Origin: Demequina sp.
GTDB taxonomy: Bacteria; Actinomycetota; Actinomycetes; Actinomycetales; Demequinaceae
NCBI RefSeq assembly: GCF_016278775.1
Contig: NZ_JADQBF010000004.1
Coordinates: 1-64,000 of the forward strand
DNA: 64,000 nt
Direction: 5' to 3'
Both the position numbers and the translations under genes were made by a program. Under the pieces are notes generated by a model. It ran no database searches, was not told the DNA's origin, and saw only the letters and a list, made by a program, of their open reading frames with translations. Of the stretch, positions 7,996-16,899 are shown in pieces (within the stretch, counting starts at the first letter, position 1; each line of letters opens with the position of its first letter).

Positions 7996-8703
7996 TCAGC
8001 GCGCGAGCGCCCCCAGCGCCACCCCCACCATCGCGGCAAACGTGGTCTCGCGTTCCTCTGAGGGCAGCGAGTCGCCCCGCACCACGTGGTCGGAGATCGT
8101 CGCAACCATGAGCGCCTCGACCCCCTCGGCCGCCGCCACCGCATAGAGTCCAGCGGCCTCCATCTCGACCGCGAGTGTCCCGTAGGCCGCAAGGCGCGGC
8201 ACGAGCGTCGCGTCGGGGTGGTAGAAGGCGTCCGACGTCAAGACGGGGCCGACGCGCAAAGTCACCCCGGCGTCGTCCGCGTAGTCGGCGGCCGCGCGCA
8301 GCAGCGCGAACGACGGCGCGTGCGAGTAGTGCACGCCCGGCAGGCGATGCGCTGTCATGTCAGAGTCGGTATGCGCGGCCGACGCTGCCACGACGTCTCC
8401 CAGCGCCAGGTCCGGATGGATTCCGCCTGCGGTGCCGACGCGCACGAGGCGCTTGACGCCATAGTGGCGAATCAGCTCGGTCGCGTAGATGGTCGCGGAC
8501 GGCATTCCCATGCCGGTCGCCATCACGGACATCGGCCGCCCCTTGTGGGTGCCGGTATAGCCGACGATGCCGCGCACCTCGGTGACCAGGCGGGCATCGT
8601 CAAGGAAGGTCTCCGCAATGCGGGTGGCGCGGCGGGGATCGCCGGGAAGCAGGATGTCGGGCGCGAAGTCGCCCTCGGCGGCAGAAATGTGTGGCGTAGG
8701 CAT
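7996..8703 (-). CDS. deoD: Purine-nucleoside phosphorylase, DeoD type
   Basis: MPTPHISAAEGDFAPDILLPGDPRRATRIAETFL...TGMGMPSATIYATELIRHYGVKRLVRVGTAGG. Confidence 0.95.
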   Translation of the reverse strand: MPTPHISAAEGDFAPDILLPGDPRRATRIAETFLDDARLVTEVRGIVGYTGTHKGRPMSVMATGMGMPSATIYATELIRHYGVKRLVRVGTAGGIHPDLALGDVVAASAAHTDSDMTAHRLPGVHYSHAPSFALLRAAADYADDAGVTLRVGPVLTSDAFYHPDATLVPRLAAYGTLAVEMEAAGLYAVAAAEGVEALMVATISDHVVRGDSLPSEERETTFAAMVGVALGALAR

Positions 8704-8776
8704 GGCACCGAGCCTAGTGCCGCGGCCTCACGCTGGCGTGGGCACCTACGATCGACAAGAACAGGAGGGGGACGAC

Positions 8777-9169
8777 GTGCATGGAACGTGGGGTTTGAGC
8801 GTCACGCGCGTGCTGGTCACGGTCGCAGCGGCGGGCTTCCTGGCGCTGCTGCCCACGGGCGCCACGGCCCTGAAGATCGCGTCGGCCGACGGGCACACAC
8901 CCCTCGTCTGCGACATCTACGCGGAGGGTCCCGATGCGGAAGCGCTTGACGGAAGGATTCCCGAGGAGGCGTTCCAGAACATCGACGCCGACGCCCGGCC
9001 GTTGCTGGGACAGGTGGACTGCACGTGGCGCGAGGCCGAAGGCGGCGTCTACTGGGAGCACACCGTTCACGCGCTGCACCCCGTCGCCGTCGCAGGAAGC
9101 TACGGACTCGCGCTGGTGATTGTCGCGGCGTCGTGGCTGACGCGACCGAGGCCATGGGCTCCGTCGTGA
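8777..9169 (+). CDS. Predicted exported/membrane protein: N- and C-terminal TM segments, central domain with two cysteines
   Basis: GTG start with AGGAGGGGG SD at ~8763; hydrophobic RVLVTVAAAGFLALLP and VAGSYGLALVIVAASWL; single Cys in LVCDIY and VDCTW. Confidence 0.7.
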   Translation: MHGTWGLSVTRVLVTVAAAGFLALLPTGATALKIASADGHTPLVCDIYAEGPDAEALDGRIPEEAFQNIDADARPLLGQVDCTWREAEGGVYWEHTVHALHPVAVAGSYGLALVIVAASWLTRPRPWAPS

Positions 9170-9212
9170 CAGGACAATTGCAGTCGATCACGGCCTTTGG
9201 GACGATGGCGGC

Positions 9213-9362
9213 ATGAACGACGCCGTCTCTGCCATTCTTCTCACCGCGGCGCTCGCGTCCGCCGGGTTCTACATGTTGTACGTCGTGGTGCGCCGCGCCG
9301 TTCGCGATGGCATACAGGACGCCTCCACCGGGCCCGGACCCACTGGCGACGAGGCAACGTAG
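9213..9362 (+). CDS. Small single-TM protein (49 aa), absent from supplied ORF track
   Basis: ATG 9213 to TAG 9362: MNDAVSAILLTAALASAGFYMLYVVVRRAVRDGIQDASTGPGPTGDEAT; TM followed by basic stop-transfer. Confidence 0.55.
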   Translation: MNDAVSAILLTAALASAGFYMLYVVVRRAVRDGIQDASTGPGPTGDEAT

Positions 9363-9451
9363 CCATCGACCTCATCATCTGACTGAAGGCGTCCCGACAC
9401 CAAGGCTTGACTGCCTCTCGATCGTCGACGTTGTGGAAAGGGGAGATCGAC

Positions 9452-10102
9452 ATGGCCACGAAGACTCAACTGAGGGCTTTCGGTATCGCGGGAGCGGCAG
9501 CGCTCGGTCTGGCGGGGTGCGCCACGTCTGGTTCGGACGACGCGCAGCGAACCATCGCGACCGACGGCGCTTACGTCGAGATTGACGGTCCATGGGAGCC
9601 GGACTTTGCCACGACCGTCGCCGCGTCGGACGTGACGGTGGTGATGGAGCCCGTCAGCGTCGGCGAACCCGTGCTGGACTACGGAACCGAGCCAGAGACG
9701 GGCGAGATCATCGAGGACGAGGGTGCCCAGGGCCTCCCCGTGACGATCAACACCTTCCGTGTGACCGACGTGGTCGACGGCGAGGCGCTGGAGCCGGGCG
9801 ATGAGATCGTGGTGGTGCTCACCGCGTGGGACTACGGCGCACTCAGCGAGGCGGGGCTGAGCGGTCTCACAGACGAGACCGTGCTGTTGGCCGCGCTCAC
9901 GCACGAAGACGCTGGCGGAACCTACCTTCTCGACGGCGACTACTACACCCCCACCGGGATGTTCAACGGAGTCATCGAGATCAGCGGTGATGCGCTAGTG
10001 CCGTGGGACTCCAAGCTAGCGACCATCGCAGGTACACCCGTTGACGAGCTGTCCACGTCACAGGCGGTGGACCTGCTGCGATCGGGGGCTGGCTCCGAGT
10101 AG
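9452..10102 (+). CDS. Putative lipoprotein of unknown function
   Basis: MATKTQLRAFGIAGAAALGLAGC lipobox; AAAGGGGA SD upstream; acidic secreted domain. Confidence 0.78.
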   Translation: MATKTQLRAFGIAGAAALGLAGCATSGSDDAQRTIATDGAYVEIDGPWEPDFATTVAASDVTVVMEPVSVGEPVLDYGTEPETGEIIEDEGAQGLPVTINTFRVTDVVDGEALEPGDEIVVVLTAWDYGALSEAGLSGLTDETVLLAALTHEDAGGTYLLDGDYYTPTGMFNGVIEISGDALVPWDSKLATIAGTPVDELSTSQAVDLLRSGAGSE

Positions 10103-10103
10103 T

Positions 10104-10135
10104 GCCGTCGGGAACAGGGGCCGTCGGGAACAGGG
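10104..10135. repeat. Perfect 2 x 16-bp tandem direct repeat
   Basis: gccgtcgggaacaggg at 10104-10119 and 10120-10135, between lipoprotein gene and heliorhodopsin. Confidence 0.95.
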
Positions 10136-10197
10136 CGCCGCCCCGCCGTGTTGGAGCAATCAGTACTCCACTTCACCGCTCAACGACGAGGGACCCC

Positions 10198-10956
10198 ATG
10201 GACACCGCTCTTGCCAAGCTCCGCCCGTTCAACCTGGTAGCAGGGCTGCTTCACCTCGCGTCGTTCGTCGCGATCCTGTTGCTCGCAAACGACGCCTCGC
10301 TGCCAGTGCGCGCCACATACCTCAACGGCCCGCCAGGTTCGGATGCGTTCGGCGAACCCGTGTCGCTGTTCTCCATCAACATCGCTCACGCGGTCGCTGG
10401 CTTCCTGGTGATCTCCGCGCTGTTCCACTTCCTGGTGATCTCCCCCGCTTTCTTCCCGCGCTACACGGCGGGGCTACGGGAGAACCGCAACACGTTCAGG
10501 TGGGTGGAGTACTCGCTCTCCTCGTCCATCATGATCGTGCTGATTCTGCAGCTCAACGGCATCTCGGAGTTCGCCGCGCTCGCCGGGCTGTTCACCGTCA
10601 ACGCCAGCATGATCCTGTTCGGCTGGCTCCAGGAGCGCTACACCACCCCCGGCGACGGCGACCTGTTGCCCTTCATCTTCGGCTCCATGGTCGGCATCGT
10701 CCCGTGGCTCATCATCGCCATCAACCTGATCGGGCCAGGCAACACGAGCGACGCCGCGGCGCCCGGCTTTGTGTACGGCATCATCGTGTCGCTGTTCGTG
10801 TTCTTCAACGCGTTCGCCGTGGTGCAGTGGCTGCAGTACCGAGCCAAGGGCAAGTGGGCCGACTACCTGCGCGGGGAGCGCACCTACATCGTGCTCAGCC
10901 TGGTCGCCAAGTCGGCGCTCGCATGGCAGGTCTTCGCGGGGGCGCTCGCCACTTAG
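10198..10956 (+). CDS. Heliorhodopsin
   Basis: 252 aa, seven hydrophobic segments; RWVEYSLSSSIMIVLI (Glu104 counterion), NASMILFGWLQERYTTPGDGDLLPF, AAPGFVYGIIVSLFVFFNAFAVVQWLQY, YIVLSLVAKSALAWQVF (Lys238); E-K spacing 134 as in HeR 48C12 (E107/K241). Confidence 0.96.
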   Translation: MDTALAKLRPFNLVAGLLHLASFVAILLLANDASLPVRATYLNGPPGSDAFGEPVSLFSINIAHAVAGFLVISALFHFLVISPAFFPRYTAGLRENRNTFRWVEYSLSSSIMIVLILQLNGISEFAALAGLFTVNASMILFGWLQERYTTPGDGDLLPFIFGSMVGIVPWLIIAINLIGPGNTSDAAAPGFVYGIIVSLFVFFNAFAVVQWLQYRAKGKWADYLRGERTYIVLSLVAKSALAWQVFAGALAT

Positions 10957-11579
10957 CGGGCAGCGCGCCGCAGGGCCTCTTCGAACGTCTGGACCGGCTG
11001 CGCGCCGGAGACGGCGAACGTGCGGTCGAACACGAAGAACGGCACGCCAGTCGCGCCCAGCGCGGCCGCCTCGTTGATGTCAGCCTGGACCGCGTCGTCG
11101 TACTGGTTGGTCACGAGCATGGCCCGCACCTCGTCGGCGTTAAGGCCAACCTCGGCGGCGAAGCCAGCCAGCGCGTCGGCGTCGTCCACGATGGCTCCCT
11201 CGGTGAACTGCGCCCTCATGAGGCGGTCCTTCATCTGGTTGCCGAGCCCGCGCTCCTGTGCGAAGTGGATGACGCGGTGGGCATCACGCGTGTTCGCCTG
11301 GATGTAGAGGTCAAAGCGATACTCGAGACCCTCCGCGGCGCCCAGGTCGATGAGCCGCTGGTTCATCTGCTGAATCTGCTCCGGCGGGGCGTTGAACTTC
11401 TTGCCAAGCGCCTCGGCGTGAGGCGTGTGCTGGCCGTGCGGGATCGTGGGGTCCAGTTGGAAACTGTGCCACGTGACGGCCACATCCTCGCCGGACGCCG
11501 CTATCGCAGTCTCCAAGCGGTGCTTTCCCAGGTAGCACCACGGGCACGCCACATCCGACCAGACGTCGACGGAAATCAC
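10953..11579 (-). CDS. DsbA-family thiol oxidoreductase (FrnE-like)
   Basis: GTG start; VISVDVWSDVACPWCYLGKHRLETAI (CPWC), C-terminal GATGVPFFVFDRTFAVSGAQP; stop overlaps heliorhodopsin stop convergently. Confidence 0.92.
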   Translation of the reverse strand: MISVDVWSDVACPWCYLGKHRLETAIAASGEDVAVTWHSFQLDPTIPHGQHTPHAEALGKKFNAPPEQIQQMNQRLIDLGAAEGLEYRFDLYIQANTRDAHRVIHFAQERGLGNQMKDRLMRAQFTEGAIVDDADALAGFAAEVGLNADEVRAMLVTNQYDDAVQADINEAAALGATGVPFFVFDRTFAVSGAQPVQTFEEALRRAAR

Positions 11580-11703
11580 GGGGCTCCTCGCGCTGACGGA
11601 CCGAAAAGAGTGGAGGTCCGCCGGGGACATGGCGCACCTTCTGCCAGCCTCAACCGTGGTGCGGGGCGGGGTATTCCCGCCAGGCACCTCTTACACTCTG
11701 AGA

Positions 11704-13397: not shown

Positions 13398-14129
13398 CTA
13401 CTCGACGGAGTTCAGCGTGAGGGTGCTGAGTTTGCGCACGCCCAAGTATACGGCGCCGACGGTGGTGAGCGTGAGCATGATGAGCCCGGTGGTCATGCCC
13501 ACCTCCGAGGCGAACGCCCACTCATCGGCCTGCCTTGAGCCGAGCAGTCTCTCGCCCACCGACAGCGCCCATTGGCGCACGCTGACCGCGCGAATACCAG
13601 GCACGTAGCCGCCCAGCACGGTCTCCCACAGCAGCGCATACAGCAGACCGAACACCACGGCGTTGCGGGTGACGATGCCGAGCGTGACAAAGATCGCGGT
13701 GTAGACGATCGCGGCGAGTATGGCGGAGAGGCCATACGCGAGCGACAGTTCGCCGCCCTCGTCCCCCGCGATGGCCACCCCTGCCATGGTGGGAAGCACG
13801 GCGAACACGAACACGGCAGCGAAGCCCACAGCCAGCTTCGAGAACAGGATCACCCTGCGCTTGAGCGGCTTGGCGAGCATGTACACGATCGAGCCGTCGT
13901 CAATCTCCGCGCCGATCACGCCGGTAGCGACCAGCAGGCACATGAGCGGCAACAGGGTGCCCATCGAGAAGTTGTTGGCCAGGATGCTCGAGGCCTCCGG
14001 CGAGGCGTCGGACGCCCACCGCGTGAGCCCAGCAAGCCCGAGCAACAGCAACGGCAGGATCACCAGGAGCAGCGCCCTGCGCCTGCCCAGCAGGCCGCGA
14101 GCGGTGAGTTTCATGACGGTGACGTTCAT
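13398..14129 (-). CDS. ABC-2 type transporter permease
   Basis: Six hydrophobic segments; downstream of ABC ATPase gene. Confidence 0.82.
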   Translation of the reverse strand: MNVTVMKLTARGLLGRRRALLLVILPLLLLGLAGLTRWASDASPEASSILANNFSMGTLLPLMCLLVATGVIGAEIDDGSIVYMLAKPLKRRVILFSKLAVGFAAVFVFAVLPTMAGVAIAGDEGGELSLAYGLSAILAAIVYTAIFVTLGIVTRNAVVFGLLYALLWETVLGGYVPGIRAVSVRQWALSVGERLLGSRQADEWAFASEVGMTTGLIMLTLTTVGAVYLGVRKLSTLTLNSVE

Positions 14130-14154
14130 CGTGATAGCCCCAATCCGTGCGCGG

Positions 14155-15066
14155 TCATCGCGCTACCAAGTACGCGAACACGCTTTCGAGCGACTCGTCC
14201 GCTGGCGTGACCTCGAGCAGACGCACGTCGCCATCACGGGCGAGCCTTGGCAGCGCCTGGACAAACCTTCCGAAGTCGGAGGCCTGCACCGCGAGCGCCC
14301 CTGAGGACACATCGACACTGTCGGCAGAGCCGTCCGCGATGATGGCGGCCGCGAGCCCGCGGTCGTCGCTCGATCGGATCGTGTACTGGTGCGGACGCTG
14401 AGTCATGAGCTTGCGGATGCGTCGGAAGTCCCCTGACGCCGCGTGCCTGCCAGCCACCACCACCTCGATGGTGCCAGCGATCTGCTCCACCTCTTCAAGG
14501 ATGTGACTGCTGAACAGCACGGTGCGACCCTGAGTCGCGAGCGACTGCAGCAGCTCCATGAGGTGCATGCGTTGGCGCGGGTCCATACCGTTGAAGGGCT
14601 CGTCGAGCAGCAGCACCTTGGGGTCGTGAACCAGAGAGGTCGCCATCTTGATGCGTTGCTTCATGCCCTTGGAGTAGCCGGAGATGTCGCGATCCTTCGC
14701 GTCCATCATGTCCACCTGCTCCACGGCGGCGCGGGCCGCGCCCACAGGGTCCGCGAGTCCGTGCAGCCTTGCGTTGGCGAGCACAAACTCCCACCCAGTG
14801 ACCATGTCGTACATCGCCTCCGTCTCCGGCACCAGGCCGATGGAGCGGTACGCCTCGGTGTTGCGCCAGACGGGCTCGCCGTCAAGCGTGACGGTGCCAG
14901 ACGACGGCGGCAGGAAGCCGCCCATCATCGAGATGAGCGTCGACTTGCCAGCGCCGTTGGGCCCCAAGAGGCCGGTGACGCCTGGGCCCACGGTCATGGT
15001 GACGTCGTTGACGGCCACCACATCCCCGTACCAGCGCGAGACGCCCGTCAGTTGGAGCGTGCTCAT
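14155..15066 (-). CDS. ABC transporter ATP-binding protein
   Basis: MSTLQLTGVSRWYGDVVAVNDVTMTVGPGVTGLLGPNGAGKSTLI; Walker B VLLLDEPFNGMDP; start overlaps upstream stop. Confidence 0.95.
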   Translation of the reverse strand: MSTLQLTGVSRWYGDVVAVNDVTMTVGPGVTGLLGPNGAGKSTLISMMGGFLPPSSGTVTLDGEPVWRNTEAYRSIGLVPETEAMYDMVTGWEFVLANARLHGLADPVGAARAAVEQVDMMDAKDRDISGYSKGMKQRIKMATSLVHDPKVLLLDEPFNGMDPRQRMHLMELLQSLATQGRTVLFSSHILEEVEQIAGTIEVVVAGRHAASGDFRRIRKLMTQRPHQYTIRSSDDRGLAAAIIADGSADSVDVSSGALAVQASDFGRFVQALPRLARDGDVRLLEVTPADESLESVFAYLVAR

Positions 15067-15986
15067 GCCACACCGACCTTCCTGTAGCGGCGCATCAACA
15101 GGCCGATGCCTCCGGCGACCACGACGATGACGGCGGCGGTGAACGCCACGCCTCCCGTGAAGCCGAGAGTGACCTCCCGACCGAAGGCGGAGTCGACCCC
15201 GAACCACAGCACCGCGATCCCGTCCACAAGGCCGTACGGGTCGAGGGCGCCAACATAGTTGCCCAGGGTCTCGTTGCCGTTGTAGATCAGCAATTCCGAG
15301 GCGACGGCTGCGACGCCTGCGACCACGGCCAACACGGTGATGATCGCCGCCACGCCAAGTCCCCTCCGGGGAGTGGCCGCCGCGATGACGAGACCAATCG
15401 ACGTCAACACGAGCGCGTATAGCACCGACACCGCGAGACCCTGCAGGTACCCGGTGATTTGCGCTCCCACTGCCAACTTGGCCAGCAGCGCGCCCACAAA
15501 GAGCAGCGTCTCGGCTGCGGCCAGAATCGCGAACAGGGCAAGCGCCAGGCCCGCGAACTTGGCGAACACGTAATCGTTGCGACGCATCGGCCGCGACAGG
15601 TACAGCGGCATCACTCCGTGGCGCAAGTCGCGTGACACGCAATACGGCGCTCGGCTGGCGACGAAGAGGGACACGATCAACGACAAGGCTTGCGGGTACG
15701 CGGTGTACGACAACGGGAGTTCGTCGAGGCCAAGAAGCACCGCGATGAGGGCAAAAATCAGCGGTGGAGCGAACAGGATCCCGACGAGCACCCACGGCAT
15801 GATCTTGGCCTTCGCTGGGCGTCCGAGGCCGAAGACGCCCCTGAACGTCTCGACCAGCAGGGACCGCACGATCCAGCCGCGGCCGAGGCGCTCACCGTCG
15901 TAGTGGCGGAAGCCGATGTCGTGAATCACGCCGTGCGACTGCGCGGCGGCGGGAGCGGCGTCTGGCACCGCAGAGTTCTCAGCCAT
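15063..15986 (-). CDS. ABC-2 type transporter permease
   Basis: MAENSAVPDAAPAAAQSHGVIHDIGFRHYDGERLGRGWIVRSLL...; multi-TM. Confidence 0.82.
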   Translation of the reverse strand: MAENSAVPDAAPAAAQSHGVIHDIGFRHYDGERLGRGWIVRSLLVETFRGVFGLGRPAKAKIMPWVLVGILFAPPLIFALIAVLLGLDELPLSYTAYPQALSLIVSLFVASRAPYCVSRDLRHGVMPLYLSRPMRRNDYVFAKFAGLALALFAILAAAETLLFVGALLAKLAVGAQITGYLQGLAVSVLYALVLTSIGLVIAAATPRRGLGVAAIITVLAVVAGVAAVASELLIYNGNETLGNYVGALDPYGLVDGIAVLWFGVDSAFGREVTLGFTGGVAFTAAVIVVVAGGIGLLMRRYRKVGVA

Positions 15987-16899
15987 GGAGCGCCTCCTGC
16001 TGGGTGGCAAACATCTCGGATAGGTGGTGACGTCCGTGCTGCATGCGGATCAGCCCGACCTCGAGGTCGACCACCACGCCTCGCACGTCGTCGAGCACTC
16101 GCTCGTCGTTGATAGCGACCGCGAAACTGTTGGGCTGGGCGCCGGTCGTCACGGTGGCGCCCATGGCCTGCAGCCTGTCGACCGCCTCTGGCCCGCGGTC
16201 GGTCACCTCGACCAGCACCACGCCGCTGAAGTCCGTCGCGGCGGCTGTGGAGGTGGAGTGCTGGAGCACGCCGCCCTCGATCGACACGATGTGGTCGGAT
16301 ATCCGCTCCAACTCGCCAAGCAGGTGAGAGGTCACCACCACGGAGATGTTGAAGTCGGCGCTGACGCGCCTGATGAGTTCGAGCATGTCATCACGGCCAG
16401 CGGGGTCGAGCCCGTTGGTCGGCTCATCGAGCAACACCAGTTTGGGATCGTGCACGAGCGCCTGAGCCAGCTTCACGCGCTGGCGCATGCCGGTCGAGTA
16501 GCCGCCGATGGGACGGTAGCGCTCCTCGTAGAGCCCCACGTGCCTGAGAGTGTCCGCGGTGCGCTCGCGCGCCACGCTTGTGGGCAGACCGGACATGCGC
16601 GCCATGTGGACGATGAACTCGGTGGCCGAGACATCGGGCGGCAGGCACTCGCTTTCCGGCATGTAGCCGACAATCTCGCGAATCTTGAGTCCGTCGGTGA
16701 GGCTGTTCATCCCGAGGATGGTGGCGGACCCTGAGGTGGGCGGCAGCAGCCCCAAGAGAATCTTGATGAGGGTCGACTTGCCGGCACCGTTGGCGCCGAC
16801 GAGGCCCACCACTCCGGTGGGCATCTCGACGGTGAGCTGCGACAGCGCGGTCACGGGGCCGAAGACCCTCGTGAGGCCTTGCGTGGCGATAGCGGGCAT
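15979..16899 (-). CDS. ABC transporter ATP-binding protein
   Basis: VVGLVGANGAGKSTLIKILLGLL; YSTGMRQRVKLAQALVHDPKLVLLDEPTNGLDP. Confidence 0.95.
   Translation of the reverse strand: MPAIATQGLTRVFGPVTALSQLTVEMPTGVVGLVGANGAGKSTLIKILLGLLPPTSGSATILGMNSLTDGLKIREIVGYMPESECLPPDVSATEFIVHMARMSGLPTSVARERTADTLRHVGLYEERYRPIGGYSTGMRQRVKLAQALVHDPKLVLLDEPTNGLDPAGRDDMLELIRRVSADFNISVVVTSHLLGELERISDHIVSIEGGVLQHSTSTAAATDFSGVVLVEVTDRGPEAVDRLQAMGATVTTGAQPNSFAVAINDERVLDDVRGVVVDLEVGLIRMQHGRHHLSEMFATQQEALHG

Follow-up and report, generated by a model that had tools for sequence, protein, structure and literature searches.

A 48C12-type heliorhodopsin in Demequina, a genus in which no Blh-type retinal-forming enzyme is found

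A predicted heliorhodopsin gene in a Demequina genome raises two questions: where would its host obtain retinal, and what would the protein do with light? The gene lies in a stretch of 64,000 nucleotides (hereafter, the window) from a 2.52-Mb Demequina sp. assembly of 115 contigs that is 93.9% complete. We examined the gene and its product, the carotenoid and retinal genes of the host genome and family, and the genomic surroundings of the gene in related genomes. The features discussed are collected in Table 1.

Table 1. Features of the heliorhodopsin locus, with positions in the window.
Feature	Position	Strand	Basis or remark
Small secreted/membrane ORF	8735-9169	+	Also adjoins heliorhodopsin in G034 (71% identity)
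Purine/uridine phosphorylase-family gene (PNP_UDP_1)	7996-8703	-	Adjoins the DsbA gene directly where relatives lack heliorhodopsin
Probable lipoprotein gene, LAGC lipobox-like	9449-10102	+	95 bp upstream of heliorhodopsin; not kept beside it in relatives
Heliorhodopsin gene	10198-10956	+	252 aa, stop TAG; profile, PDB and model matches
Glu104 codon, equivalent to 48C12 counterion Glu107	10507-10509	+	Alignment; invariant in 91/91 relatives
Lys238 codon, equivalent to retinal-binding Lys241	10909-10911	+	Alignment; model helix 223-250
DsbA-fold thioredoxin-like (FrnE-like) gene	10953-11630	-	PF01323, 160.6 bits
ABC-2 transporter cluster: permease, ATPase, permease, ATPase	13398-16899	-	2.4 kb from heliorhodopsin

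The gene encodes an intact heliorhodopsin

The original prediction described a complete heliorhodopsin frame, and its translation indeed gives 252 residues and a stop codon, with all of the motifs quoted for it. The family assignment is equally secure, as profile searches, the kind of check proposed with it, return matches far over the cut-offs, both to the Pfam heliorhodopsin family (PF18761, 316.7 bits versus a cut-off of 26.7, E = 1.1e-94, profile positions 1-242 of 242) and to the NCBIfam HeR equivalog (NF038020, 325.9 bits versus a cut-off of 100, E = 1.6e-97). The PDB chains of 48C12 match the protein at E ≈ 1e-99. PF18761 is the sole match in the protein, and the type-1 rhodopsin profile PF01036 matches neither the protein nor anything else in the genome, which holds a single heliorhodopsin copy according to a genome-wide search. 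The ATG at 10198 is favored as the start, given that the homology of relatives begins at residue 1; a longer GTG start has no support from these relatives, which align from that residue. The GC content by codon position (0.59, 0.43, and 0.91) is typical of a real high-GC gene. The gene is thus a genuine, intact heliorhodopsin of the 48C12 type, and the notion of a chance or degenerate seven-helix frame is already refuted by the profile and PDB matches, the structural model, and the conserved residues.

An AlphaFold2 model built from a 33-row alignment (mean pLDDT 87) has seven long helices, of which one is interrupted at residues 136-138, and a short helix in the B-C loop (residues 86-94), as in solved heliorhodopsins. 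In Foldseek, its best match is 48C12 (6su4; TM 0.93, 62% identity), followed by TaHeR (TM 0.86-0.88). Heliorhodopsin entries span E values of 5e-23 to 6e-15 and TM scores of 0.86-0.93, whereas the first type-1 entry appears at E = 6e-4 with a TM score of ≈0.6; the predicted fold is therefore nearer to heliorhodopsins than to type-1 rhodopsins. The model places Glu104 in helix C (residues 99-119) and Lys238 in the seventh and last helix, helix G (residues 223-250), in keeping with the retinal-binding position that had been anticipated for this lysine. By family analogy, the N terminus would be cytoplasmic, in the inverted topology.

The 48C12 protein, from an uncultured freshwater actinobacterium (PDB 6su3, 6su4, and 6uh3), is 62-64% identical to the window protein over 244-248 columns. 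The two have in common the fold, the counterion/lysine pair, the cavity residues, and the GPPG loop, which is also present in the Demequina lutea heliorhodopsin, DlHeR (PMC9385722). Glu104 and Lys238 are found at the predicted spacing of 134 residues and align with Glu107 and Lys241. The other functional residues of 48C12 present in the window protein (window/48C12 numbering) are His19/23, Ser73/76, His77/80, Arg101/104, Glu227/230, Ser234/237, Ser239/242, and Trp243/246. The positions corresponding to His23, Ser76, His80, Arg104, Glu107, Glu230, Ser237, Lys241, and Trp246 do not vary across 91 relatives, bar one truncated row. Unlike 48C12, in which Gln26 is part of a proposed signaling relay, the window protein has a serine, Ser22, at this position. 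Serine is the majority state (80 of the 91 relatives), which rules out Ser22 as an unusual variant.

A member from the same genus has been studied directly: DlHeR, expressed in Escherichia coli with added retinal, has a λmax of 550 nm (PMC7807009). It is compared with the window protein here by genus and published properties. Our protein adds one sequence to a large known family, of which a congeneric representative has already been expressed.

Two heliorhodopsin lineages are patchily distributed in the Demequinaceae

Heliorhodopsin is present in 11 of 47 Demequinaceae genomes and falls into two lineages there. The host genome groups as one genus with those of D. activiva, D. aestuarii, and Demequina sp. 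NBRC 110052, which also carry the nearest copies in named genomes (87%, 90%, and 90% identity and loci L005, L006, and L004, respectively). These copies match over their full length, and their immediate neighbors differ; the heliorhodopsin sequences of genomes G001, G002, and G027 are the same as those of D. activiva, D. aestuarii, and NBRC 110052, respectively. The Demequina group that includes the window copy is a clade with support of 100/99, which joins the copies of G036 and a Ww84 genome (99/94). Across Demequina species, heliorhodopsin identity is 85-90%, and neighboring genes there are ≈75-97% identical. A recent horizontal gain into the host species was considered and is unsupported for this main lineage, which forms a single clade with a divergence similar to that of its neighbors. 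The second, distant lineage (G033, G044, and G045; L086/L107, L084/L111, and L085) is 55-58% identical to the window copy.

Two further observations concern the wider collection. One contig of G036 (C102, L094) carries a second, partial heliorhodopsin match (profile positions 161-242) besides the full copy on another contig. Public metagenome-assembled genomes titled Bifidobacterium breve and Chitinophagaceae (L029, L045, L046, L050, L056, and L080) also carry heliorhodopsins, and these cluster with freshwater Acidimicrobiia-like and Saccharibacteria sequences; the genomes are probably mislabeled or contaminated bins.

The host probably depends on retinal from outside

The original prediction noted that no retinal biosynthesis gene occurs in the window and proposed that retinal is made elsewhere or acquired. 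We find no Blh-type dioxygenase (PF15461) anywhere in the genome, nor in any of the 47 Demequinaceae genomes. Because the same profile does detect Blh in the order (13 of 149 genomes), this negative result is informative. A blh gene could be missed in one genome that is 94% complete, but hardly in all of the near-complete relatives that carry heliorhodopsin. No type-1 rhodopsin was found across the Demequinaceae genomes either, in a profile search run without a positive control. An outside source or an unrecognized route is therefore supported by the absence of Blh from both the genome and the family.

In the genome-wide search that had been suggested, blh was not found; CarR-type cyclase genes, present as two halves, lie on another contig, and crtB likewise lies outside the window. 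The genes crtE-crtB-crtI stand at the end of contig C27 (L102:6252-9942). The end of contig C9 (L103:6410-7925) carries the two lycopene cyclase halves, both with a CarR domain, and then a UbiA prenyltransferase gene. Actinobacterial C50 carotenoid clusters of the decaprenoxanthin/sarcinaxanthin type are ordered crtE-crtB-crtI-crtYe-crtYf-crtEb. From the gene arrangement and the CarR-type cyclases, the split cluster looks like one for C50-carotenoid rather than beta-carotene synthesis, and we infer that the two contigs join into one cluster. As a C50 product would differ from the substrate that Blh normally cleaves, the gene set agrees with the missing Blh.

Without a recognizable Blh, and with carotenoid genes that suggest a C50 end product, the host most likely scavenges its retinal from the surroundings, and the window copy would be loaded with exogenous retinal. 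This retinal-auxotroph setting is informative, yet it has precedents: most related aquatic Actinomycetota have rhodopsins without blh and depend on outside retinal (PMC12422013).

An alternative is that retinal arises within the host itself, through an enzyme outside the Blh and RPE65 profiles or through chemical or oxidative carotenoid cleavage, so that the photoreceptor would be self-sufficient. Carotenoid precursors are available for such a synthesis, and one would hardly expect approximately nine Demequina species that lack Blh to have retained the gene if they seldom had access to retinal. Nevertheless, the 47 genomes contain a single RPE65-family gene (G041, contig C44, L095), and it belongs to a genome without heliorhodopsin; moreover, uptake of exogenous retinal through a lateral fenestration has been proposed for TaHeR (PMC9385722). 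We consider self-sufficiency unlikely, and we are similarly doubtful that heliorhodopsin is kept in this genus of probable C50-carotenoid producers because Demequina has an unrecognized retinal-producing enzyme or a different chromophore. Far less probable still is a retained apoprotein, or a carotenoid- or lipid-binding membrane protein, that works without retinal: although it would fit a host in which no retinal synthesis was found, neither Lys238 nor the cavity residues vary, and the Demequina homolog binds retinal.

The gene neighborhood changes between relatives

We compared eight heliorhodopsin-bearing Demequinaceae regions with several regions that lack the gene. In the window, the heliorhodopsin and DsbA genes are convergent and share 4 nt (TTAG) at their stop codons. 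The probable lipoprotein encoded upstream has no match in Pfam or NCBIfam. In two genomes without heliorhodopsin (G043 and G004), the DsbA and PNP-family genes are adjacent and in line; in the window (7996-11630) and in G034, heliorhodopsin and one or two small genes split this pair. Loci L113, L114, L106, and L108 belong, with the window, to this comparison of intact and split pairs. Elsewhere, heliorhodopsin lies just past the PNP gene (G027), is separated from DsbA by one DUF4328 gene (G012), or stands 180 bp from a four-gene ABC-2 transporter in divergent orientation (G002 and G016). In G039, considered as an empty site, the contig ends directly after the DsbA gene. The four-gene transporter itself (two ATPases and two permeases; also L105 and L109) is patchy and is commoner in heliorhodopsin-bearing Demequina.

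Heliorhodopsin therefore moves locally within a small set of neighbors without forming an operon, and no conserved operon or same-strand partner gene stands beside it in the Demequina regions compared. This fits the published absence of consistent neighbors for heliorhodopsins (PMC9385722), so no partner can be named, and a function read from the neighbors was rejected for want of a stable operon. The locus had been recommended as a new member with readable gene context; that context is less informative than implied, and the member is less novel, a Demequina homolog having already been expressed.

One neighbor nevertheless deserves separate consideration, in that heliorhodopsin might modulate the nearby ABC-2 transporter by light, as the Ornithinimicrobium cerasi protein does with OmrDE, where a heliorhodopsin likewise lies near an ABC exporter (PMC11109279). 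The cluster is directly divergent in the two genomes named above, lies within a few kilobases in the window and in G034, and is present in 6 of 9 Demequina genomes with heliorhodopsin versus 4 of the 35 others (P = 0.002 in a hypergeometric test that ignores shared ancestry). The linkage, however, is inconsistent among relatives: the cluster lies elsewhere in G012 and G033, is absent from G001, G027, and G036, and occurs in G039, G037, G004, and G013, where no heliorhodopsin was detected. Unlike the fused heterodimeric OmrDE, the window transporter is a DrrA-like ABC-2 system, and it is encoded on the opposite strand rather than in one operon with heliorhodopsin. We therefore regard light control of this transporter as an improbable role.

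Discussion

We favor, with a probability of roughly 0.7, the reading that the gene encodes a functional heliorhodopsin, a Lys238/Glu104 retinal photoreceptor that would absorb near 550 nm, pass through a slow photocycle, serve as a light sensor or regulator rather than a pump, and rely on scavenged retinal. Retinal binding, absorption at 530-556 nm, a slow photocycle, and the lack of pumping are known from other members (PMC7807009) and would extend to the window protein by analogy. All-trans retinal would be bound at Lys238 with Glu104 as the counterion; green light would isomerize it, and Glu104 and the hydrophilic cavity would respond, as in the family. The slow photocycle would then change the cytoplasmic face and thereby alter how active a bound partner protein is.

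The view that heliorhodopsins have no settled role has been overtaken by reports for three members, which are reported to raise in light the activity of glutamine synthetase (PMC9529153), an ABC exporter (PMC11109279), and photolyase (PMC9769723). Behavior like that of a sensor is likewise on record for other members. Because no partner gene or same-strand operon partner is conserved in Demequina, the regulator role rests on these other species, and a regulatory function and any partner of the window copy are suggested by analogy. For this copy, the evidence supports the receptor part only.

Our analysis adds to the family the absence of Blh from the Demequinaceae, the split carotenoid genes, and a patchy, two-lineage distribution without a conserved operon. 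What makes the protein useful is its setting, a group of culturable Demequina with and without the gene in which no retinal-forming enzyme or other rhodopsin was found. Demequina is thus a clean background in which to ask whether a heliorhodopsin needs supplied retinal and what it regulates.
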